Assembly: GCF_900066015.1 (NCBI RefSeq)
Contig: NZ_LN890655.1
Location: forward strand, 3,140,726-3,204,725
Origin: Candidatus Promineifilum breve
GTDB taxonomy: Bacteria > Chloroflexota > Anaerolineae > Promineifilales > Promineifilaceae
Direction of reading: 5' to 3'
Length of the DNA: 64,000 nt
Shown here: positions 168-64,000 of the stretch, piece by piece
Numbering within the stretch: the first letter of the stretch is position 1
Layout: every line of letters begins with the position of its first letter
Made by a program: the position numbers and the translations under genes
Notes under the pieces: generated by a model
Database searches by the model: none
What the model saw: the letters and a program-made list of their open reading frames with translations, nothing else
Told to the model about the DNA's origin: nothing

Positions 168-206
168 TCTAGAAACCGAGTTTTTCTGAGAAACTCGGTT
201 TCTAGA
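168..206. repeat. REP-like palindrome A, copy 1
   Basis: A perfect 16-bp inverted repeat: TCTAGAAACCGAGTTT (168-183) pairs with AAACTCGGTTTCTAGA (191-206) around a 7-nt loop. The T tract on the loop side could let it act as a weak terminator. It ends just before the ribosome binding site of the small ORF at 221. Confidence 0.9.
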
Positions 207-1830: not shown

Positions 1831-1908
1831 GGGGAGAGCAGGGGAGCGGGGGGGCAGGGGAGCAGGGGAGACTGGCCCCTGTCCACTGCCCACTGTCCAC
1901 TCCCCACT
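1831..1908. repeat. G-rich and CCACTGN tandem repeats
   Basis: 1831-1872 is a run of GGGGAGCA-like 8-nt units. 1878-1908 is a 7-nt tandem (CCACTGC, CCACTGT, CCACTCC) ending at the stop codon of the next minus-strand gene. The G-rich unit recurs at 5001-5050, 61235-61285 and 63573-63614, each time inside a coding frame. The rest of the 1667-1830 gap shows no gene. Confidence 0.75.
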
Positions 1909-3322: not shown

Positions 3323-3348
3323 CGTCTTATGCTCCTAAGAAAAGAGAA

Positions 3349-3460
3349 TCCACAGATTTCACAGATTTCACAGATTTAAGAAATACTTTTTAATCTGCGC
3401 AATCTGCGTAATCTGCGGATTATACTTCTTCCTCTGTGAAATCTGTGTAATCTGTGGATG
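3349..3460. repeat. Long imperfect palindrome of 9-nt units (CACAGATTT)
   Basis: The left side carries CACAGATTT three times and the middle AATCTGCGN three times. The right side carries the complement of the left (TGTGAAATCTGTGTAATCTG, about 3435-3454). The whole spans the gap between the aminotransferase gene and the recR stop codon and folds on itself with mismatches. Confidence 0.85.
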
Positions 3461-6127: not shown

Positions 6128-6155
6128 AGTGACGAGTGACGAATGACGAATGACG
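6128..6155. repeat. 7-nt tandem repeat GTGACGA/ATGACGA
   Basis: Four units (GTGACGA twice, ATGACGA twice) lie just upstream of the dnaX start. The dnaX frame stays open through them, which creates a spurious N-terminal extension. Confidence 0.8.
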
Positions 6156-6248
6156 AATGAAGCGTTCGTAATTGATTGGAATTTTAGCATTGATAGGAAG
6201 GGGGAACAAGGCGGGGTCAATCGGGTCTCGGCCTGAGCACAATAGCCG

Positions 6249-11747: not shown

Positions 11748-13013
11748 ATGACGTTGGAGCTTGACAAGTTATCGCCCGACCTGGAACAGATGGCCCGCGC
11801 CGCGGCCGAAATGCGCCGGGAGCAAAAAACGCGCGCCAAACAACTGCGCGAACTGGTGGCTGAGCGGGCCACCGATTGGGCCGGCATCCGCGCCGGGTTA
11901 CAGCGGGCGGAAGAGATCGCCGACCGCAAGTATTTCCGCGCCGCCGCCCCGCTGACCGAGAATGAGCCGCTCAACGCCGCCATCCCGCCCCCACCACCGC
12001 CCGACCGGGCCACGATCATCGCCACCGACGGCTCGCAGATCATGCCCGACCGTCACGCCGCCTTCCTCTACTACCTGATCAATGTTGGGGCCATCGTCTA
12101 TCACCACGGCAGCGATTTGGCCCCGGCCATCCATACCTCGCCGCGCCTGTTCTACCCGCAGATCGAGGACGACCAGACCGAGGATGAGCCGGGCTTCGAC
12201 ACGAGTCAGGTGACCATTGCCCGCGACCGGGGCGAGATCGAGATGCTGGCCAACCTGGCCGCGGCTTATCGCGGCGGCCCCGGCTGGGTGCTGGCCCTGC
12301 TCGATCAGCGGCTGCTCTACTGGCCGATGGTCGGCGAGCGGGGCAGCGCCGAGGGCGTCGTCGCCAACTGGACGCGGGCCATGCGCCACATCCACGAGAC
12401 GGGCGCGCTGCTGGCCGGCTACATCGACCGGCCGGGCAAGCGCTCGGTCATCACCATGCTCCAGACCTTGCTCGACGAACCGGATATGGATTGGCGGGCC
12501 TTGGGCAAGCGGCCGACGGGCAACGAATTGACCGACGCCGGCCTCTATGCCACGCTGCTCGGCCCCGGCTGCCGCAGCCCGGTCTTCGTCGATATTTCAT
12601 CCACCAACAAGCGCTTTGCCGAGGAAGACCCCAACATCGAGGTCTGCTTCTTTTATCTGAACGCCGGTAACAGCAACGTGGCCGTCGCCGACGAGCTGGA
12701 GCCGGGCGGCGAGGCGCGGGCCGTGGCCCGAGTGGATATACCGCGCTGGGTGGCCGAGAACCCGGCGGCGGTCAGCGCCGTCCATAGCCTCGTCTATGAC
12801 CAGTGCCGCATCCTGCGCAACTATCCCTACGCCCTGACGCGGGCCGACGAGCTGGCCGTGGTGAAGCGCGACGACGAGACCAATCTCAATTTTATGATCG
12901 ATCTCGCCATGCAACGGGTGGGCCTGAGCGGCAGCGAGACGGCCAAGCAGAGCGGCAAGGAGATCGCCCGCGGCGGCCGCACGCAGTACCGGATGGGCAG
13001 CGGGCATGGCTAA
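11748..13013 (+). CDS. nurA: NurA family 5'-3' nuclease
   Basis: The 421-residue protein carries the NurA core. The metal-binding motif IATDGSQIMPDRH (D94, S96) follows an N-terminal helical region. Later conserved blocks include LLDQRLLYWP, SVITMLQTLL and a C-terminal DQCRILRNYPYALTRADELAVV. NurA is a nuclease that works with the HerA hexameric translocase to resect DNA ends. Here herA follows as the third gene of the cluster, which supports the call. A 133-bp repeat-filled palindrome separates it from the next gene. Confidence 0.87.
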   Translation: MTLELDKLSPDLEQMARAAAEMRREQKTRAKQLRELVAERATDWAGIRAGLQRAEEIADRKYFRAAAPLTENEPLNAAIPPPPPPDRATIIATDGSQIMPDRHAAFLYYLINVGAIVYHHGSDLAPAIHTSPRLFYPQIEDDQTEDEPGFDTSQVTIARDRGEIEMLANLAAAYRGGPGWVLALLDQRLLYWPMVGERGSAEGVVANWTRAMRHIHETGALLAGYIDRPGKRSVITMLQTLLDEPDMDWRALGKRPTGNELTDAGLYATLLGPGCRSPVFVDISSTNKRFAEEDPNIEVCFFYLNAGNSNVAVADELEPGGEARAVARVDIPRWVAENPAAVSAVHSLVYDQCRILRNYPYALTRADELAVVKRDDETNLNFMIDLAMQRVGLSGSETAKQSGKEIARGGRTQYRMGSGHG

Positions 13014-13146
13014 AAGATTTCAACGCCAAGGAACGAAGAGTGGCGGGTGGCAAGTGGCAAGTGGCGAGTGGCATGTTCACCGAGACTTGCTACCCGCCAC
13101 CCGCTACCCGCCACTCCTTAGCGTCTTGGCGTTTATTTCTTTTCTT
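13012..13146. repeat. Long imperfect palindrome of 7-nt units (GTGGCAA/GTGGCGG)
   Basis: The left arm reads AACGCCAAGG then GTGGCGG, GTGGCAA, GTGGCAA, GTGGCGA units. The right arm is the complement (ACCCGCCACCCGCTACCCGC, then CTTAGCGTCTTGGCGTT). The two arms match in order over about 60 bp, making one large stem with internal tandem units. It occupies the whole nurA-to-next-gene gap and stops before the ribosome binding site at 13149. Confidence 0.88.
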
Positions 13147-15553: not shown

Positions 15554-15901
15554 TCGTGCTTGCCATTGCCCTTTAGTCGCCGCTGTGTTACGATCTTCAC
15601 TATTATCCTTCATTCATCGATCATCCTTGCAGGCTTGAATCATTTCGCGTTCGTCATCATGGTTACTCTCGTGGGATCACAATTCTCATCCGGGCTGATC
15701 GCTGCCGGTCGGCCACGCTTTATCATGCGGTAACCACAACGGATCGATCTCCCTGCAAGCGCGCCGGCCGTGCCCGGCGTTCATTTGATTGTGAATGGTG
15801 GATGCATTAACGGCATTCACCTTTTTTGTTTTGGGCCAGGCGACCGGCCCGCGTTGTTGATCATTATTCATTATCATTAGCAAGGGAGTTGTTGATTTAT
15901 T
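15554..15901. other. 348-bp gap: no gene seen; carries a hairpin-T6 terminator
   Basis: No plausible ORF is visible. From about 15690 the stretch is rich in small dyads (GCCGGTCGG, GCGCGCCGGCCGTGCCCGGCG). It ends with a clear intrinsic terminator at 15797-15827, about 245 nt after the herA stop and 75 nt before the next gene. It could be a long 3' UTR, an attenuator leader for the PIN/TRAM gene, or an unrecognised small RNA. Confidence 0.5.
15797..15827 (+). terminator. Rho-independent terminator
   Basis: The stem GGTGGATGC (15797-15805) pairs with GCATTCACC (15813-15821, one G-U pair) around a 7-nt loop, followed directly by TTTTTT (15822-15827). Confidence 0.75.
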
Positions 15902-16975
15902 ATGCGCACGCGCATCGAATTCATTTCACGCATCATCGGCGCGGTCGTTCTGGCTTCCGCGCTGGCCATCATCGGCGTCCAACTGGCGGCGATGCTCGAT
16001 CTCGACCCATTGCGCTATGGCATCGCTTTCGGCGTGGGTGGCGGCGTGTTGGGGGCCGTGCTGGGCTTCCTGTTCACGCCCTATCTGACCGTCCGGCCGA
16101 TTGGGGCCGTGCGCCAATCGCTGTCGGCCATGCCGCTGGAACGGCTGGTGGCGATGATGATCGGCATCTTCATCGGCCTCATCGCCGGGGCGCTCTTCGC
16201 CATCCCCCTGTCCCAATTGCCTTCGCCGTTCAAGGAAATCCTGCCGCTGGCGACGGCGCTGGGCTTCTGCTACCTGGGCGCGGTGCTGATGATGCATCGC
16301 TATCGGGACTTGCGCGAATTCGCCGGCGGGCTGCGCGTCGGCCGCAACGCCGAGAAGGCGCTGCCCGCACCCGAAGAGAAAGTCGACGAGAACGTCATCT
16401 TGCTCGATACCAGCGTCATCATCGACGGCCGCATCCTCGACATCGGCCGCACCGGCTTCATCCGCCATACGCTGCTGGTGCCCAATTTCGTGCTCAAGGA
16501 GCTGCAACACATCGCCGACAGCGCCGACAGCCTGCGCCGCAATCGCGGCCGCCGCGGGCTGGACATTCTGAGCATGTTGCAGAACGAGTCGCCCGTGCCG
16601 GTGCGCATCACCGACATGGACGCGCCGCAGACCCGCGACGTCGACAGCAAGCTCGTCGTCCTGGCCCGCCGCCTCACCTGTCCCATTATGACCAACGACT
16701 ACAACCTGAACAAGGTCGCCGAGTTGCAGGGCATCACCGTCCTCAACATCAACGATCTCGCCAACGCGGTCAAGGCGTCCCTGCTGCCCGGCGAGGAGTT
16801 GAAGGTGACCATCATCCAGGAAGGCAAGGAGTATGGGCAGGGTGTCGGCTATCTGGATGACGGCACGATGGTCGTCGTCGAGGACGGCCAGCGGGTGATG
16901 AACCGCACCGAAAACGTCGTCGTGACCAAAGTGTTGCAGACGACGGCCGGGCGGATGATATTTGCCAAACTATAG
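15902..16975 (+). CDS. Membrane-anchored PIN/TRAM domain protein (YacL-like)
   Basis: The 357-residue protein has four predicted N-terminal membrane helices (to about residue 135). A PIN nuclease domain follows (LLDTSVIIDGRILDI at about 163, LDILSML, VDSKLVVLARRL, IMTNDYNLNKVAE), with the conserved acidic residues of the active site. A C-terminal TRAM domain comes last (ELKVTIIQEGKEYGQGVGYL...VVVEDG). This is the YacL architecture, thought to be an RNase-like membrane protein. Its TAG stop leads straight into the GGAATTA repeat. The next gene is cysS, a neighbour often seen for this family in Gram-positive bacteria. Confidence 0.88.
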   Translation: MRTRIEFISRIIGAVVLASALAIIGVQLAAMLDLDPLRYGIAFGVGGGVLGAVLGFLFTPYLTVRPIGAVRQSLSAMPLERLVAMMIGIFIGLIAGALFAIPLSQLPSPFKEILPLATALGFCYLGAVLMMHRYRDLREFAGGLRVGRNAEKALPAPEEKVDENVILLDTSVIIDGRILDIGRTGFIRHTLLVPNFVLKELQHIADSADSLRRNRGRRGLDILSMLQNESPVPVRITDMDAPQTRDVDSKLVVLARRLTCPIMTNDYNLNKVAELQGITVLNINDLANAVKASLLPGEELKVTIIQEGKEYGQGVGYLDDGTMVVVEDGQRVMNRTENVVVTKVLQTTAGRMIFAKL

Positions 16976-17048
16976 GAATTAGGAATTACGAATTAGGAAT
17001 TAGGAACATGATGAAGCGCTCTTTAATTCCTAATTCCTAATTCTTAAT
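16975..17048. repeat. Long palindrome of 7-nt units (GGAATTA / TAATTCC)
   Basis: GGAATTA, GGAATTA, CGAATTA, GGAATTA (16975-17002), a 19-nt spacer, then the complement (TTTAATTCC, TAATTCC, TAATTCT, TAATT; 17022-17048). It fills almost the entire gap to the cysS ribosome binding site. The first unit shares its G with the stop codon of the PIN/TRAM gene. Confidence 0.88.
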
Positions 17049-17059
17049 TGGAGTGAACC

Positions 17060-18502
17060 ATGTCGCTAAAAATCTACAACGTTCTGTCGCGGCAAAAAGA
17101 AGAGTTCGTGCCCCTGACACCCGGCCGGGTGAATATGTACGTCTGCGGCCCCACGGTCTATGACTACTCCCACATCGGCCACGGCAAGACCTACGTCAGC
17201 TTCGACGTGGTTGTGCGCTATCTGCGCTTCCTGGGCTACGATGTTCTCTACGTGCAGAACATCACCGACGTCGGCCACATGCTCGACACCGGCGAGGATC
17301 GCATCCTGAAGAAGGCACGCCAGACCTCGGCCCTGCCGATGCAGGTGGCCGAGGCCTATGCTCGGGACTACTTCGAGGACATGGACGCCCTGGGCGTGCG
17401 CCGGCCGGACATCAGCCCGCGGGCCAGCGGCCACATCACCGAGCAGATCGCCATGATCGAACATCTCATCGCTGAAGAGCATGCCTACGTCAACGACGGC
17501 TCGGTCTATTTTAGCGTCGTCTCCTACCCGGAGTACGGCAAGCTCAGTGGTCGGATCGTGGAAGAGCAGGAAGAAGGCGCGCGCGTCACCGTGCGCGAGG
17601 ACAAGCGCCACCCGGCCGATTTCGCCCTGTGGAAGAAGGCCGAGCCGGAGCACATCCTGCGCTGGCCCAGCCCGTGGGGCGACGGCTTCCCCGGCTGGCA
17701 CATCGAATGCTCGGCCATGGCCGCCAAATACCTGGGCGACACCTTCGACATCCACGGCGGCGGCATCGATAACATCTTCCCCCACAATGAATGCGAGATC
17801 GCCCAGAGCGAGGCGGCCCACGGCGCGACCTATGCCCGCTACTGGATGCTGACCGGCTCGCTGACGCTGGAGCGGGTGAAGATGAGCAAGAGCCTGGGCA
17901 ATACGCTGACGGTGAAGGACGCGCTGGCCCGCTGGCGGCCGGAGGCGATTCGCACCTTCATCCTCTCCGGCCAATATAGCAACCCCGTCGATTTTTCCGA
18001 GGGGGCCATCGAGGCCGCCTATAAGGGCTGGCAGCGCATCTGGGGCGCGGTGACCCTGACCCGCGACCAACTGCGTCAGGCAGAGGCGGGCGAGATCAGC
18101 GCCGAGGCCGCTAAAATCCTGGCCGACGCCCGCGCCCAGTTTATCGAGCGCATGGACGACGACTTCAACACGCCCGGCGCGCTGGCCGTGTTGCAGGATT
18201 TGACCCGCGCCGTGAACGGGCTGATCAACGAGGGCGGCCCGCAGACACGGGGCACGCTGGCGGCCATTGACGCCACCTTCCGCGAACTGGGCGGCGAAGT
18301 GCTGGGCATCGTGCCCGAAGGCGCGGAGAGCGGGGCCAACGCCGAACGCGAGGATGGCCTGGTGCGCCTGCTGATCGATCTGCGCAAACAGGCGCGGGAC
18401 AACAAGGAATGGGCCACGGCCGACATCATTCGCAACCGGTTGAAAGAGTTGGGCGTGGTGCTGGAAGATAGAGTCGATGGGACGATCTGGAAACTCGGCT
18501 GA
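17060..18502 (+). CDS. cysS: Cysteinyl-tRNA synthetase
   Basis: The 480-residue class I synthetase has all key motifs: the zinc ligand C29 in [10 protein letters not shown], the HIGH signature (38-41), the zinc ligands in [10 protein letters not shown] and [13 protein letters not shown], and KMSKS at about 274-278. The C-terminal helical DALR-like domain is complete. GGAG sits at 17050-17053 before the ATG. The last 26 nt overlap the start of the TrmH-type methylase gene. Confidence 0.97.
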
Positions 18503-21909: not shown

Positions 21910-21955
21910 GGCGACACGTGCGACGCACTTTCCGAAGTGCGTCGCACGTGTCGCC
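21910..21955. repeat. REP-like palindrome B, copy 1 (extended)
   Basis: A perfect 21-bp inverted repeat (21910-21930 with 21935-21955) around loop TCCG. The inner part TGCGACGCACTT/AAGTGCGTCGCA is shared with copies at 23813 and 28454. It lies between convergent genes. Confidence 0.92.
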
Positions 21956-28449: not shown

Positions 28450-28453
28450 CCCT

Positions 28454-28485
28454 GGTGCGACGCACTTTCTGAAGTGCGTTGCACC
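28454..28485. repeat. REP-like palindrome B, copy 3
   Basis: GGTGCGACGCACTT (28454-28467) pairs with AAGTGCGTTGCACC (28472-28485) around TCTG, with one G-T mismatch. It starts five bases after the stop of the PLP enzyme gene. Confidence 0.88.
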
Positions 28486-30724: not shown

Positions 30725-31219
30725 CTATTCCATCCCCATCATCTCCTCCCACCACACCGTCTCGCCACTCTCATTATAACCAGCCATTGGCTCCCGCACG
30801 ACGCCCCCGCCAACCTGCTCGTCCGTCCGCTCCAGCACCGCAATCACCGTCCCCGCCGCGTGGTGCTCCTTCTGCCGCTCCACATAGGCGACGACATAGG
30901 GCAACCGCTTGCCGTCGAAGGTCATCGCGCCGTACTCCTCGGCCCAATGCAGCGGCTCCTCGGGCGAGCGCTTGTTGAACTTGGTTGCGGCGGCGGCCTT
31001 CACCTGACTCACGAACGAGGCCACGGGCACGCGCGGCGAGATGCCGGCGACCAGATGGACGTGATCGGCCGTGCCATTGAGGGCAAAGACCGCGCCGCCC
31101 AGCTCGACCGCCTTCCAACGGATCGCATCGAGCACGACCGGCTCGGCGGCCGCGGTCACTGTCGCCTCGCGCCGCCGGGTGGCCCAGACAAGATGGTAGT
31201 ACAGTTGGCAATAAGGCAT
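30725..31219 (-). CDS. REP-associated / IS200-type Y1 transposase
   Basis: I start at MPYCQLYYHLVWATRRRE (ATG 31219, GGAG six bases upstream), giving 164 residues. It has the IS200 TnpA opening (YHLVWATRRR), the HUH metal motif in ADHVHLVAGI, and a likely catalytic tyrosine in YVVAYVERQKEHHA. The C-terminal extension (VREPMAGYNESGETVWWEE) and the lack of a tnpB gene or IS ends suggest a single-copy RAYT-type transposase, the class that spreads REP palindromes. Two palindrome families are in this window. It borders the toxin-antitoxin island. Confidence 0.75.
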   Translation of the reverse strand: MPYCQLYYHLVWATRRREATVTAAAEPVVLDAIRWKAVELGGAVFALNGTADHVHLVAGISPRVPVASFVSQVKAAAATKFNKRSPEEPLHWAEEYGAMTFDGKRLPYVVAYVERQKEHHAAGTVIAVLERTDEQVGGGVVREPMAGYNESGETVWWEEMMGME

Positions 31220-31339
31220 GATGTGCTCCATATGGTGGCGGCGCGTTGGCGATTGGAAACGCGCCTTCGGAATGGCGCGATTATACGCTTTGCCGGTCAT
31301 GGAGCGCACGTCTATCATTGGTCGCGACGGAGAATGACG

Positions 31340-32041
31340 ATGACCAAATGCTTGCGGCAACGACCAACCGACCGCGGCCCGAATTGGCTGCGCCAGAGCA
31401 TCGGCGCGACTATTTTGGCCTTGGGCTGTCTATTGGCCTTGTCCGGTTGCAGCGCGGCCGATCCTCTGCCAACCGTCGTCCCGACCGTTCAGCCGGCCGT
31501 CCTGACGCCCATCGTTGCCCCCACACTTCCACCCACGCCGCCACCCACGCCGCGCCCCTCGGCCACGCCTGCCCCCAGCCCAACCCCCTGCCAGTTCCCC
31601 CTCCAACCGGCGCTGGCCGACGCCTGGAGTGCCGATGAGCTAGGCTGCCCCATCACTTCCGGCGCGGCGGCCATCAATACCGCCTACGCGCCCTTTGAGG
31701 GCGGGCAGATGCTGTGGCGCGGCGACACCGACAACATCTACGTGCTGTTCAACGACGGCCGCTGGGCGAGCTACCGCAATACCTGGCGCGAGGACGATCC
31801 CGAGTACACCTGCGGCGAGAGGAACAGCCCACCCACGCCCGTGCGCGGCTTCGGCCGGGTCTGGTGCGAGCAGCCCGGCGTGCGCGAGACGCTGGGGGCG
31901 GTCACGGCGGCCGAAATTGGCGACGACGGATCGGCCGTGCAGGATTTCGTCAATGGCGCCATCCTGGCCGCGCCGTTCGGTGGCCTGTTCGTTTTTGAGG
32001 GCGAAGATGGGACGTGGCGGTTGGTAGAAGTTTTACCGTAG
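31340..32041 (+). CDS. Lipoprotein with Pro-rich linker and unknown C-terminal domain
   Basis: ATG 31340 lies seven bases after GGAG (31329-31332); an earlier ATG at 31334 is too close. The 233-residue protein has a lipobox (LLALSGC), a long Pro/Thr linker (VAPTLPPTPPPTPRPSATPA) and a domain with four cysteines (CQFP, GCPIT, TCGER, WCEQ). Blocks such as APFEGGQMLWRGDTDNIYVL and FGRVWCEQPGVRETLG resemble LGFP-type repeats seen in other Chloroflexota lipoproteins. Exported; function unknown. Confidence 0.65.
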   Translation: MTKCLRQRPTDRGPNWLRQSIGATILALGCLLALSGCSAADPLPTVVPTVQPAVLTPIVAPTLPPTPPPTPRPSATPAPSPTPCQFPLQPALADAWSADELGCPITSGAAAINTAYAPFEGGQMLWRGDTDNIYVLFNDGRWASYRNTWREDDPEYTCGERNSPPTPVRGFGRVWCEQPGVRETLGAVTAAEIGDDGSAVQDFVNGAILAAPFGGLFVFEGEDGTWRLVEVLP

Positions 32042-57838: not shown

Positions 57839-58112
57839 TTGTAGGGCGGGATGGTATCCCGCCCGCTCGTAGCGTCGAATGGCGGGGCATTAACAAATAA
57901 ATGGACATTTTCACCCGATGGATGAATCCATCGGCTGCTACACAAAACCGCGTTAAAACGCGTTGCCGGCGCTTCTGCAACCGGCTTCAGCCGGGTTTTG
58001 TGTAGCAGCCGCGGGTTTGAACCCGCGCGGCGAAAACGTCCAGTATTATGTTAATGTCCCAGTGTTCCGCGATTTTATGAGCGAAGAGGCGGGATGCCAT
58101 CCCGCCCTACAA
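57839..58112. repeat. Composite 274-bp imperfect palindrome
   Basis: Outer arms are TTGTAGGGCGGGAT (57839-57852) and ATCCCGCCCTACAA (58099-58112). Further in, GGCTGCTACACAAAACC (57933-57949) pairs with GGTTTTGTGTAGCAGCC (57994-58010). Small hairpins (ATGGATGAATCCAT; CGCGGGTTTGAACCCGCG) sit at matching places in each half but differ in sequence. The centre holds CCGGCTTCAGCCGG. It fills the gap to the MmcQ gene. Confidence 0.85.
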
Positions 58113-59230: not shown

Positions 59231-59249
59231 AGTTTTACTCCGGAAGAAA

Positions 59250-59393
59250 ATGAATTAGCCACGGATTGACACGGATTTCACGGATGAACACGGATATTGC
59301 CGATAGGTGGCTATTTAGTCCACTTTTTCATTTGAAACCCTGTCCATCCGTGTTCATCCGTCCCATCCGTGTTTATCCGTGGCTAAATTATTG
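59250..59393. repeat. Long imperfect palindrome of 9-10 nt units (CACGGAT)
   Basis: The left arm reads ATTAGCCACGGATTGACACG and then CACGGATG, CACGGAT; the right arm is the complement (CATCCGTGTTCATCCG, ATCCGTGGCTAAAT). Same layout as the palindromes at 3349, 13012 and 16975 but with a different unit. Confidence 0.87.
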
Positions 59394-60950: not shown

Positions 60951-63900
60951 CTATTCCTCAATGGTGACAAATTCCCCGCCATCGGCCCGCAGCCGCGCGC
61001 CGGTGGCGGGATCATAGAGGCCGACACGCAGGGTCAGCGGGCCGGGCGGCAACTCGGCCGGCAGGTTGAGCGTGTGGGTGTCTAGCACGTATTCGCCGGG
61101 CAGCCAGCCGGTGGTCGGCCGCGCCCATGCGCCGGGCACGCCGTCGGCCTGGGCCACGATGTTGCCCGCCTCGTCAACAAGGTGGATGAAGACGTGATAG
61201 CCGGTGGCGGTTTCGGCTTCGGCGCGCCAGATGAGGGGGAAGGCGCAGGGGAGAGCGGGAGCAGGGGAGCAGGGGGGCAGGGGAGAATCTCCGGCGAGAC
61301 CGGCTAATGTGGCGACGGGCGCGCCGTCGGGTGTGGTGAAGGTGGCGTTGAGCGTTTGCGCCAGGGGCGGCGGGGTGAACTGGCGTTGCGGGGCGGTCAC
61401 GGCGATCTCGCCCAGCGGGAAGTCTTCCAGATAGAAATGGTAGCGGCCACTGGGCAACCCAGCGGGCAAACGGACGAGGTGCTGCCCGCGTAGCCGGCCA
61501 TGTTCCGGCCACGCTTCAGCCGGAAAATCCTCGCGAATAGCCGGCAACCGCCACTCATGCAGCCTCTCCCCGGTCTCATTCACCAGTCGTAAGGCGAATC
61601 GTTGGCATGATGAGCGATCGGTGCATTCCCAGAAGAACGTCATCAGCACCGAATCGCCCGGCGCGGCCTCGGCTCGATCCTGGTTGTAGCCCAGCAGCTT
61701 CAAGCCCAGCGCCGGAAAGTCGTGCTCGACGGCATATTGCGGCGCGAAGGTTGGCGGTGTGGTCGGGTTGACGATCTCGATCTGCCCGATGACCGCCGTC
61801 GGCCCGATTGGTTGGCCGGTGGTCGCGTCCGCCAACGTCGCGGGGACCAGTGTCGCCTTATCGAAGAGGGTGACGACCAGATCGTAGATGCCCGGCGGCG
61901 CGCCGGTCAGCGTCTGTACTTCGCGGCTGTCCCAACCCCATTGGCCGGGCGACCACTGGCGCGTCGGCGGCGCGTCCTCGAACGGGCGCGGCCGTTCCGT
62001 CCCCTTTTGGCTCCAGGCCAACCCGTCCGGCCCGACGAGCGATAGCTCGGACTGATAATCCACTGTTGGCGGGGCGACGGCCGTCCAGGCCATATCCACG
62101 TCCAACGTCTCCCCGGCGGGTACACGGTCGCGGCTCAGAGCAAAGCCATCCAGCCGCAGTTCGCCGCCCCGCAGTGCCGTCGCCTGTTGCACCGGCGGCG
62201 GCGCGGTTTGGCGCAAGGGCGTCTCGACGCGATCGACCAGCAGCTTGCCGGCCAGCAGGGCGACGCCGACCAGGGCGAGTAGTAGCCATGCGGAGCGGGG
62301 GAGGGGTGGCGGGTAGCGAGTGGCGGGTGGCGGGTGATGATCGTCCTGAGCCGTTGAGAGGCGGCGATTGGCGTTCGGCCGACGCGCCCGCGCCGCCACC
62401 GCAATTGCGCCGACGGCCGATAACAGACTGATACCGACCAGCGCCGCCCGCAATGGCGTGATCCCCCAATCGACGGCGAGGGTGTGGGTTCCGGCGGGCA
62501 CGGCGAAGGTGATCAGCCCCGTCGGGTCTTCGGGCGTGATGGGCACGCGCGCGCCGTCGACGCGGGCCGACCAGCCGGCAAAATCGAAGCTGAGATAGCG
62601 GGCGGTGAACGGCTCCGGCGAATCGACGGTCAGAGTCACGCCGAAACGTTCATAGGCCACGTCGCGGGCTTCGGCCGCGGCGGGCAGGGCGCTCAGGTCG
62701 AAGCGCTGCGGCGTGCGCCCGGCGGCGAAGTCGGCCTCCAGCGGTGAGCCGGTCGGCCGCTCCCGCACCGTGCGCGGGAAGTAGCTGCCCTCCGGGTCAA
62801 CGCCGACCAGCCCGGTGACGCGCTCATACTCATGCACGGTCATGATCGTCGGGAACGGCTCTTCGACGCACAGGCGGGGGTAGAGGTTGGGCATGGCCTC
62901 GAGGATGAGCAGGCCGATGGCGGCGGCGGGAAAGACGACTGACCACAGACCACCGACCACCGACCGCCGACGGACGACCGCAGACCACTGACCACCGACC
63001 GCTGGCTGCACCACCTGAGCGCTATCCGTCACCCGCCACCCGCCACCCGCCACTTCTTCCGCGGTCTGTGGTCTGCGGTCTGCGGTCGATTTACGCTCCA
63101 GCCAATAGAACGGGATCCCCGCCAAGAACGCCACCGGCAGCGCCGCCCGGCCGACGAAACGCCACGGGAATTGCACGAAGTCGATCAGCGGCAACGCTTC
63201 CCAGAGCCAACGGGAGATGGGCAGGGCCATGAACAGGTAGAGCGCCGCGCCCAGGGCCATCAGCCAGATGTGCAGGCGCTGCTCGCGGGCGCGGCCGTCG
63301 CTGCCCCTGATCCACACCAGCCCGCTCAGCCCCGCGGCGGCCAGCAATAGCGGCACCCAGCCCAGCCGAAATAATAAGGGCGGATTGAGCAGCGCCGGGT
63401 TCTCGGCGGCCACCGGCGTCAGGATTTCGCCCAGCGTGGCAAAGTTATAGCGCCAGTCGTTGTTGCGCGTCGTCGTCGACATCTCCAGCGTCACCTGATC
63501 CATTTCCAGCAGCGCGCCGCCGGTGTAGAAGAAGGCCAGGCCGAGGCCGAGGAGGACGAGCGCGAGCGCGCGGAGCAGGGGAGCAGGGGAGCGGGGGAGC
63601 AGGGGGGCAGGGGAAAATGCCTCTGCCCCTTGATGGGCGAACAGGGCCAGGGCTATTAGATATATCAGCAGCGTGGGGGCGAAGATGAAGGTCGAGATGT
63701 TGTGGCTGATCGAGAGCAGGGCCAGACCCAGGACGCCGGCCAGGAAGGCGCGGACGGAGCCGAACAGCACCCAGCGCCGCCCCACCCACAGCAGAAACGG
63801 GAACAGCGGCAGGGCCAGCGATTCCGGGGCGTTGCCGCGCACCAGGGCGTCGATGAGGACGTAGGGCGCGGCCATGTAGGCCACGGCCGACACCAGCGCC

Positions 63901-64000
63901 GGCCGCTCGCCGAACAGGTCGCGCACCCACAGGAACATGAAGATGCCGCACAGCAGGATGGTCACGGCATAGAACAGATTCGACGCCGCCGGCAGCGGCA
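60951..64000 (-). CDS. Very large membrane protein (YfhO / 6-pyruvoyl-tetrahydropterin synthase-related type), 5' end outside window
   Basis: The frame is open to the right edge, so the start is missing; over 1,010 residues are visible. The N-terminal part has many membrane helices (VAYMAAPYVLIDALVRGNAP, LGLALLSISHNISTFIFAPT, FVQFPWRFVGRAALPVAFLA), resembling membrane glycosyltransferase-like YfhO proteins. The C-terminal 500 residues are soluble beta domains outside the membrane. Four places are coded by short tandem repeats (61235-61285, 62290-62345, 62937-63095, 63573-63614), which give odd loops such as QPAVGGQWSAVVRRRSVVGG. Its C-terminus abuts the Hsp20 remnant. Confidence 0.75.
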   Translation of the reverse strand, partial: PLPAASNLFYAVTILLCGIFMFLWVRDLFGERPALVSAVAYMAAPYVLIDALVRGNAPESLALPLFPFLLWVGRRWVLFGSVRAFLAGVLGLALLSISHNISTFIFAPTLLIYLIALALFAHQGAEAFSPAPLLPRSPAPLLRALALVLLGLGLAFFYTGGALLEMDQVTLEMSTTTRNNDWRYNFATLGEILTPVAAENPALLNPPLLFRLGWVPLLLAAAGLSGLVWIRGSDGRAREQRLHIWLMALGAALYLFMALPISRWLWEALPLIDFVQFPWRFVGRAALPVAFLAGIPFYWLERKSTADRRPQTAEEVAGGGWRVTDSAQVVQPAVGGQWSAVVRRRSVVGGLWSVVFPAAAIGLLILEAMPNLYPRLCVEEPFPTIMTVHEYERVTGLVGVDPEGSYFPRTVRERPTGSPLEADFAAGRTPQRFDLSALPAAAEARDVAYERFGVTLTVDSPEPFTARYLSFDFAGWSARVDGARVPITPEDPTGLITFAVPAGTHTLAVDWGITPLRAALVGISLLSAVGAIAVAARARRPNANRRLSTAQDDHHPPPATRYPPPLPRSAWLLLALVGVALLAGKLLVDRVETPLRQTAPPPVQQATALRGGELRLDGFALSRDRVPAGETLDVDMAWTAVAPPTVDYQSELSLVGPDGLAWSQKGTERPRPFEDAPPTRQWSPGQWGWDSREVQTLTGAPPGIYDLVVTLFDKATLVPATLADATTGQPIGPTAVIGQIEIVNPTTPPTFAPQYAVEHDFPALGLKLLGYNQDRAEAAPGDSVLMTFFWECTDRSSCQRFALRLVNETGERLHEWRLPAIREDFPAEAWPEHGRLRGQHLVRLPAGLPSGRYHFYLEDFPLGEIAVTAPQRQFTPPPLAQTLNATFTTPDGAPVATLAGLAGDSPLPPCSPAPALPCAFPLIWRAEAETATGYHVFIHLVDEAGNIVAQADGVPGAWARPTTGWLPGEYVLDTHTLNLPAELPPGPLTLRVGLYDPATGARLRADGGEFVTIEE
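61235..61285. repeat. G-rich 8-nt tandem repeat inside the giant membrane gene
   Basis: GGGGAGCA-type units, read on the minus strand as the Pro/Ser/Cys-rich stretch SPLPPCSPAPALPC. Same unit as at 1831, 5001 and 63573. Confidence 0.8.
62290..62345. repeat. 7-nt GGCGGGT repeat inside the giant membrane gene
   Basis: GGCGGGT/AGCGAGT-type units (62307-62336) are read as HHPPPATRYPPPLPRS, just before a membrane helix. The same unit makes the palindrome at 13012-13146. Confidence 0.75.
62937..63095. repeat. Inverted 7-nt repeats inside the giant membrane gene
   Basis: The left side has GACCACC/GACCGCC units (62941-63004), the middle has CACCCGC units, and the right side has the complement of the left (GGTCTGTGGTCTGCGGTC, 63064-63081). 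It is the same palindrome layout as the intergenic elements but lies wholly inside an open frame, adding about 50 codons in a loop between two helices. Confidence 0.8.
63573..63614. repeat. G-rich 8-nt tandem repeat inside the giant membrane gene
   Basis: GGAGCAGGG-type units, read on the minus strand as SPAPLLPRSPAPLLRA in a loop between membrane helices. Confidence 0.8.

Follow-up and report, generated by a model that had tools for sequence, protein, structure and literature searches.

When the gaps between several genes of one chromosome are each filled by a short tandem repeat, a brief centre and the complement of the same repeat, are these palindromes separate local accidents, or members of one class with a common way of arising? 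The question was raised by an earlier note on the window studied here, i.e., the whole 64,000-nucleotide stretch C1:3140726-3204725 of the Candidatus Promineifilum breve genome (5.03 Mb in three contigs), which listed four such palindromes and supposed that they could fold as RNA stems. All four are present at the positions given, and each is predicted to fold well beyond dinucleotide shuffles (z = -10.7 at 3349, -8.4 at 13012, -5.8 at 16975 and -10.9 at 59250). Each entry is thus real, but the list was incomplete: it lacked a composite at 1836-1908, an array at 6130-6160 and nested arrays within an open reading frame at 62933-63088. The element at 13012 is itself nested, its AGTGGCR arms being enclosed by an outer AACGCCAAGG / CTTGGCGTT pair (Table 1). 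A search of the window against Rfam gave no match.

Table 1. Repeat arrays and related features in the window, by position; family letters are defined in the text.
Feature	Position	Strand	Basis or remark
C forward array GAGCAGGG, left half of non-complementary composite	1836..1870	+	sequence
B1 reverse array ACTGCCC, right half of 1836-1908 composite	1871..1908	-	sequence
D forward array, CACAGATTT x3, left arm	3348..3374	+	sequence
D reverse array (inner), CGCAGATT variant	3392..3417	-	sequence
D reverse array, TCTGTGAAA, right arm	3433..3459	-	96% complementary to 3348-3374
A2 array TGACGAA, unpaired	6130..6160	+	sequence
Outer arm AACGCCAAGG, G-like family	13022..13031	+	sequence reading; paired in RNA fold
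B2 forward array AGTGGCR, left arm	13039..13073	+	sequence
B2 reverse array, right arm	13085..13116	-	sequence
Outer arm CTTGGCGTT, partner of 13022-13031	13125..13133	-	sequence; RNA fold
A forward array TAGGAAT	16973..17006	+	first three bases are the upstream gene's stop codon (gene end 16975)
Centre with lineage motif (GAAGcGCTCTT), present in other centres too	17007..17023	.	sequence
A reverse array TAATTCC, right arm	17024..17049	-	cysS start at 17060
Y1 (IS200-like) transposase gene	30725..31360	-	Y1_Tnp match
E forward array CACGGAT+2-3 nt (CACGGATTGA), left arm	59249..59295	+	sequence
E reverse array, right arm	59346..59392	-	85% complementary

Such structures are hard to explain by chance, as had been claimed, and they do recur as one architecture. 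We analysed the window together with 60 further stretches (1.264 Mb of the genome in total), counting as a pair any tandem array of period 6-12 with an array of its complementary unit no more than 100 nt downstream. In 464 kb there were 36 inverted array pairs, whereas dinucleotide shuffles gave none, first in a set of 3 and later in a set of 20; arrays of period 6-12 numbered 414, against 111-127 in the shuffles. The raw count of 36 includes pairs with a common array, and after de-duplication 29 pairs remained in 400 kb of evenly spaced stretches. This density of 7.2 pairs per 100 kb, which extrapolates to some 360 pairs genome-wide, was taken from the evenly spaced stretches only, because the second set of stretches was partly picked at known elements. 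The full 1.264 Mb holds 139 reverse-complement array pairs, and the same matching rule applied to other relations yielded 55 complement, 31 same and 12 reverse pairs. Most pairs (113 of 139) fall within predicted gaps, of which they occupy a median of 65%, with gap borders approximate since genes were called by a simple hexamer script. Periods in gap arrays are chiefly 7 (51 of 110) and 9 (31), with 10 arrays each of period 8 and period 10; coding arrays have period peaks at 9 and 12.

The units fall into about a dozen dispersed families: A (AATTAGG/AATTACG), A2 (AATGACG), A3 (AAGGATG), B1 (AGTGGTC and relatives), B2 (AGTGGCG), C (GCAGGGGA), D (CACAGATTW), E (CACGGAT plus 2-3 nt), F (CACAGAGGA), G (CGCAAAGG), J (TAGGTTC) and K (GGTCDGT, counted as one merged family in the polarity counts below). 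Although gaps make up only about 12% of the 1.26 Mb, 365 of 508 family arrays lie in them. The initial description of the units as unrelated therefore does not hold: each is a family with many genomic copies, and the CACAGAT- and CACGGAT- units have a common core. GGAATTAGGAATTA, for example, is matched 61 times in the genome, its mirror image not once. Each genome has several unit families with many copies each. The forward array consists of a 7-nt core plus 0-3 variable nt and is usually purine-rich: among 113 elements of this genome the forward arm has the higher purine content in 99, and the same is true of 25 of the 32 non-bait hairpins found elsewhere. Since the longer units resemble a 7-nt core with a variable spacer of 0-3 nt, the reported range of 7-10 nt may represent one core length plus spacer. 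Arrays of C, B2 and K also occur within a 1000-aa open reading frame (60951-63998, minus strand) at 61245-61285, 62304-62336, 62933-63088 (nested) and 63572-63614, so that coding sequence may be invaded where the frame allows.

Palindromes of other kinds were also seen in this genome. One dispersed, non-tandem form, TAGAAACCGAGTTTTT..AAAAACTCGGTTTCTA, has several copies (window 170-193, 351-384 and 403-436; L024 5838-5985; L023 5771-6151). Another dispersed form, GTGCGACGCACTT..AAGTGCGTCGCAC, lies at window 21910-21955 and 28450-28485 and at L019 12835-13064, with 21-nt arms that are 100% complementary at 21910, and a palindrome around CAACCGGCTTCAGCCGG with GGTTTGAACC flanks occurs in more than one copy (window 57920-58023; L023 248-866).

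The earlier preference over spread of one sequence is not supported: the units are dispersed families, shared within this genome and, for the 9-nt family that was scanned, among at least nine bacterial phyla. The D hairpin (CACAGATTW...AATCTGTG), scanned as CACAGATTWCACAGAT, 6-36 nt and ATCTGTGWAATCTGTG, was found in at least 117 stretches, and the matches listed come from Bacteroidota, Pseudomonadota, Chloroflexota, Acidobacteriota, Planctomycetota, Verrucomicrobiota, Cyanobacteriota, Spirochaetota, Aminicenantes and Ignavibacteria, including the isolates Asticcacaulis biprosthecium, Bacteroides fragilis and Laspinema. The same pattern written backwards had zero matches in every genome searched. 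Near many D elements of other phyla lie hairpins of other families with the same architecture. A metagenome-assembled genome titled 'Bordetella parapertussis' also carries D hairpins in its spacers (L096, L125), a label that may be wrong. Viruses in IMG/VR had the D pattern in 3 and the A pattern in 2 stretches only, and D-like matches were found in just 2 of 72,556 plasmids; given these near-absences, we rejected carriage of D and A hairpins by viruses and of D hairpins by plasmids.

What unites the elements is a strict order. They form a class of polar hairpins in which a forward array is followed by a short centre and a reverse array, directly behind stop codons. Leaving K aside, same-family neighbours within a gap read '+-' 96 times and '-+' never, with three '++' and three '--' (p = 2.5e-29), and neighbours of different families read '+-' 16, '++' 12, '--' 9 and '-+' 0 times (p = 3e-5). 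From these counts it follows that a gap reads as any (+) arrays followed by any (-) arrays, K being the exception, with two '+-' pairs and one '-+' in gaps and either polarity in the wider pair list. Hairpins nest in one another's centres (e.g., D+ B1+ D-; A2+ B2+ B2- A-; G+ B2+ G-; G+ B2+ B2-), whence the gap order (+)...(+)(-)...(-). The same polarity is kept by composites whose arms are non-complementary (A+ B1-, A2+ B1-, C+ B1-), and the L016 composite (A+ with B1-), with arms that cannot pair and a weak RNA fold, still obeys the grammar. Beyond this genome, the D element gave 276 forward matches, overlapping ones counted, against 2 in the reversed arrangement among 33 genomes of many phyla that were mostly chosen for holding D hairpins; the readable one of the two reversed arrangements consists of two adjacent hairpins.

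The turnover of repeats expected among relatives was likewise found. We compared the genome under study (G000) with seven genus mates whose flanking genes are roughly 72-88% identical. In these mates the orthologous gaps carry hairpins of other families or else plain spacers, and therefore the content turns over and the architecture recurs. Before cysS, for instance, G000 has an AATTAGG hairpin, G002 one of TAGGGGT and G006 one of GAGATAC, and the spacer is plain in G001, G003 and G004. At 13014, where G000 has AGTGGCR, G002 carries a CGCAAAGG hairpin and G006 one that is CGCAGATT-like, and 7-57 nt of other sequence take the place in G007, G003, G001 and G004. D occupies the gap at 3323 in G000 and G005; G007 and G002 have CGCAAAGG hairpins there, and the content is plain or decayed in the others. 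The E hairpin at 59231 is absent in G005 and G006. As an internal control, the gap at 15554-15901 has stretches whose conservation throughout the genus is clear. This leader, upstream of the gene at 15902, contains a hairpin, GAATGGTGGATGC..GCATTCACC, with a T-run behind it, has no Rfam match and may represent an attenuator or else an RNA not yet described. Families are also exchanged at one gap followed through about 25 Flavobacterium species, some with D hairpins inside outer AATTGTG arrays and others with GTAAAAT, TTTCARG or CACGAATT hairpins. Separately, the Flavobacterium spacers L281, L283, L285, L290 and L292 have a palindrome GTCAGGCTGAGCGGAGTCGAAGCC..GCTCTTCGACTTCGCTCAGAGTGACA interleaved with the tandem hairpins.

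Dispersed families of polar hairpins, nesting in centres, turnover at a single gap and anchoring behind stop codons are all shown by the sequences. As to how they come about, we infer, tentatively and with a little less than even confidence, that polar hairpin elements spread within genomes by replication-associated copying. Existing hairpins would serve as donors, and during replication the single-stranded hairpin DNA of one locus would be copied or joined into another hairpin's centre, or into the spacer behind a stop codon, by way of template switches wherever a short sequence is shared (for this genus, the centre motif AAGAGCGCTCTT). The unit number would then change through slippage, and hairpins would persist only in neutral spacer, since purifying selection would keep coding sequence, promoters and ribosome binding sites free of them. 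A dedicated mobility enzyme does not seem to be needed, and a mild benefit of the stem at gene 3' ends is possible.

The centres themselves are informative here. AAGAGC occurs in 19 of 110 centres of the genome, against 0.7 expected, whatever the arm family; AAGAG and AAGAA are each present in 31 of 110 (3.7 and 4.4 expected, respectively), and the fullest form in the genome is GAAGAGCGCTCTTC. That the centre motif is also found at joints of nested modules, and that L016 and L019 have the same right half, GAAGAGCGATT..CGACTTRCTGACC (B1-), behind different left halves, suggests that halves have recombined at a shared centre. Outside Chloroflexota the motif had no clear enrichment (21 of 104 vs 14.7 expected), and as it is strong in the genome studied and weak there, we rejected it as a universal seed. 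Moreover, copying within genomes does not explain the sharing of exact words across phyla without virus or plasmid carriage, which needs chromosomal DNA transfer or an unknown constraint. A broader reading, in which an unrecognised chromosomal process in at least nine phyla would write polar arrays of shared 7-10 nt words on either side of spacer centres, nest new ones there and so rewrite spacers wholesale between related species, we regard as conceivable but doubtful.

Among the alternatives, transposition in trans of non-autonomous hairpins by a hairpin-recognising transposase, as REP sequences are moved by Y1 (RAYT), fits elements that are dispersed, palindromic, polar and intergenic, with an outer end, CCACAGATT, conserved in many phyla, and G000 has three Y1_Tnp matches, one of them in the window. 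The number of Y1_Tnp matches does not track the number of elements, however, and G003 has hairpins with neither a Y1_Tnp (PF01797) nor a reverse transcriptase match, a comparison to be read with the caveat that old copies could persist; the Y1 requirement was rejected on this ground. Unit number and families also vary within one gap, and many unrelated families have one common architecture, and we consider such transposition unlikely.

Slightly further down in plausibility, selection might have favoured a stem at the 3' ends of genes, for mRNA protection or for bidirectional termination, with arrays arising frequently and stem-formers behind stop codons being retained. The predicted RNA stems are strong, and the 'exact fit' behind stop codons described at the outset stands up: over 87 co-directional gaps, the median distance from the stop codon to the hairpin is 5 nt (10 nt or less in 65%, with overlap of the stop in 23%), and that from the hairpin to the next start codon is 29 nt. 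Hairpins with 7-nt units are depleted in divergent gaps (3/62, p=0.007), and in the D series of orthologous Flavobacterium hairpins the outer unit is 99% paired. On the other hand, the inner 5-nt block of that series, which changes as a block, is just 64% paired, unpairable composites such as L016 persist, orthologous gaps of relatives do without any hairpin, and the recurrence of exact units is left unexplained. Convergent gaps are without excess (15/113 vs 80/651, p=0.76), for which reason a role as intrinsic bidirectional terminators was rejected. Taken as the main cause, selection for stems thus strikes us as distinctly unlikely.

The earlier note had given template switching in a replication fork as an example of a mechanism; in such local creation an array would grow by slippage and a switch at the fork would copy its complement back, so that each palindrome is made in place. 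Some findings agree with this. In D (0.954 vs 0.911), A (0.956 vs 0.932), B1 and E an arm is slightly closer to its own partner than to arms elsewhere, a margin that local copying or stem selection could account for; in other phyla, some elements (L106, L053) have arms mirrored through variant units, and across 110 D elements of many phyla partner identity is 0.530, against 0.394 for random pairs. Others do not. There is no such excess in B2 (0.877 vs 0.876), C (0.904 vs 0.918) or K, the advantage of the 110 D elements is gone within genomes (0.506 vs 0.515, p=0.70), and variant units in the second arm are not mirrored beyond shuffled arms (n=95, mean z 0.23; 2% at p<0.05). Since arms are nearly as like those of other loci and unit order is unmirrored overall, local fold-back copying is not the main source. 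Nor does it predict that the non-complementary composites A+ B1-, A2+ B1- and C+ B1- keep their polarity, and polarity is fixed, whereas local inversion should yield both orientations. As a general origin, local creation appears improbable to us.

End extension, in which both 3' ends of a spacer break would be lengthened by a templated, telomerase-like repeat-adding enzyme and then joined, with forward arrays to the left of the join and reverse arrays to its right, is very improbable, for although it predicts the grammar best of all models, along with mixed-family arms and centre nesting, and although a bacterial enzyme, DRT10, is described as making tandem-repeat DNA (PMC12632851), the 99.96% complete genome has no RVT_1 reverse transcriptase (PF00078 had no match in G000, G003 or G007, on which basis DRT10- or telomerase-like addition was rejected) and no Ku (PF02735, none in the genus), and another repeat-adding enzyme would have to be postulated. 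Replication-associated copying of existing hairpins accordingly remains the reading we prefer, at the strength given above.

Intergenic spacers are usually viewed as slowly decaying or regulatory; here they are replaced among related species by interchangeable hairpins with a shared vocabulary and a strict order rule. If a single process underlies the heptamers of Xanthomonas, cyanobacteria, Bacteroidota and Chloroflexota, then genome change, 3'-end RNA stems and regulatory novelty would all have a widespread source that has gone unstudied.

How do these elements relate to known systems? Heptamer repeats in intergenic DNA have already been reported (PMC4692102, PMC4679880, PMC4060949), and a literature look-up of our unit words as literal text gave no match. 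The GGGAATC heptamers of Xanthomonas (Rehm et al. 2015, PMC4692102) form intergenic arrays near stop codons, are depleted between divergent genes, differ in length and sequence between species and include 70-75 places with two convergent arrays, i.e., potential stem-loops. The elements described here are alike in being intergenic heptamer arrays near stops, rare in divergent gaps, with convergent pairs in the same orientation (96 '+-', 0 '-+'). Unlike them, the Xanthomonas system has one G-rich unit per genome, mostly in single arrays studied for quadruplexes, and is without multiple families, nesting, a polarity grammar or family exchange at one gap; most of our units have no G-tracts of three, and no GGGAATC or GGGGAYT dimers occur in the 1.26 Mb analysed. 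The TAACTGA repeats of Beggiatoaceae, cyanobacteria and Bacteroidetes (MacGregor 2015, PMC4679880) lie upstream of start codons, with one inverted case among 170 sets, and pose the same puzzle of words shared across phyla without a vehicle. Like our units they are intergenic heptamers, one word recurring in distant phyla with no evident vehicle, but they are direct repeats placed upstream of start codons, and TAACTGA is absent from the sampled part of this genome.

The STRR of cyanobacteria are heptamer repeats too. Long simple sequence repeats of 5-11 nt are described as predominantly of period 7 and phylogenetically scattered, with slippage as the proposed origin (Mrazek et al. 2007, as cited in PMC4679880). 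Both resemble the present arrays in these three respects, and here, too, arrays (of period 6-12) exceed chance, period 7 is the commonest in gaps and the arrays are mainly non-coding; they are described as single arrays, however, and are not known to have been described with inverted pairing or order. REP/BIME elements are short dispersed intergenic palindromes with non-tandem arms of 20-40 bp and a conserved tetranucleotide tag, moved by RAYT transposases. Set beside REP/BIME elements and their transposases (PMC3733652), the present hairpins are likewise short, dispersed, intergenic palindromes, but in place of a fixed tagged palindrome with non-tandem arms we find tandem arms that draw on about a dozen families of units and vary in unit number, and the link to the enzyme failed here. 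We found no description of interchangeable families, nesting, a cross-family order rule or family exchange at orthologous gaps in the open-licence literature, which is weak evidence of absence. What is new relative to these systems is the ordering grammar of forward before reverse arrays within a gap, and this rule offers a quantitative test for any mechanism proposed.
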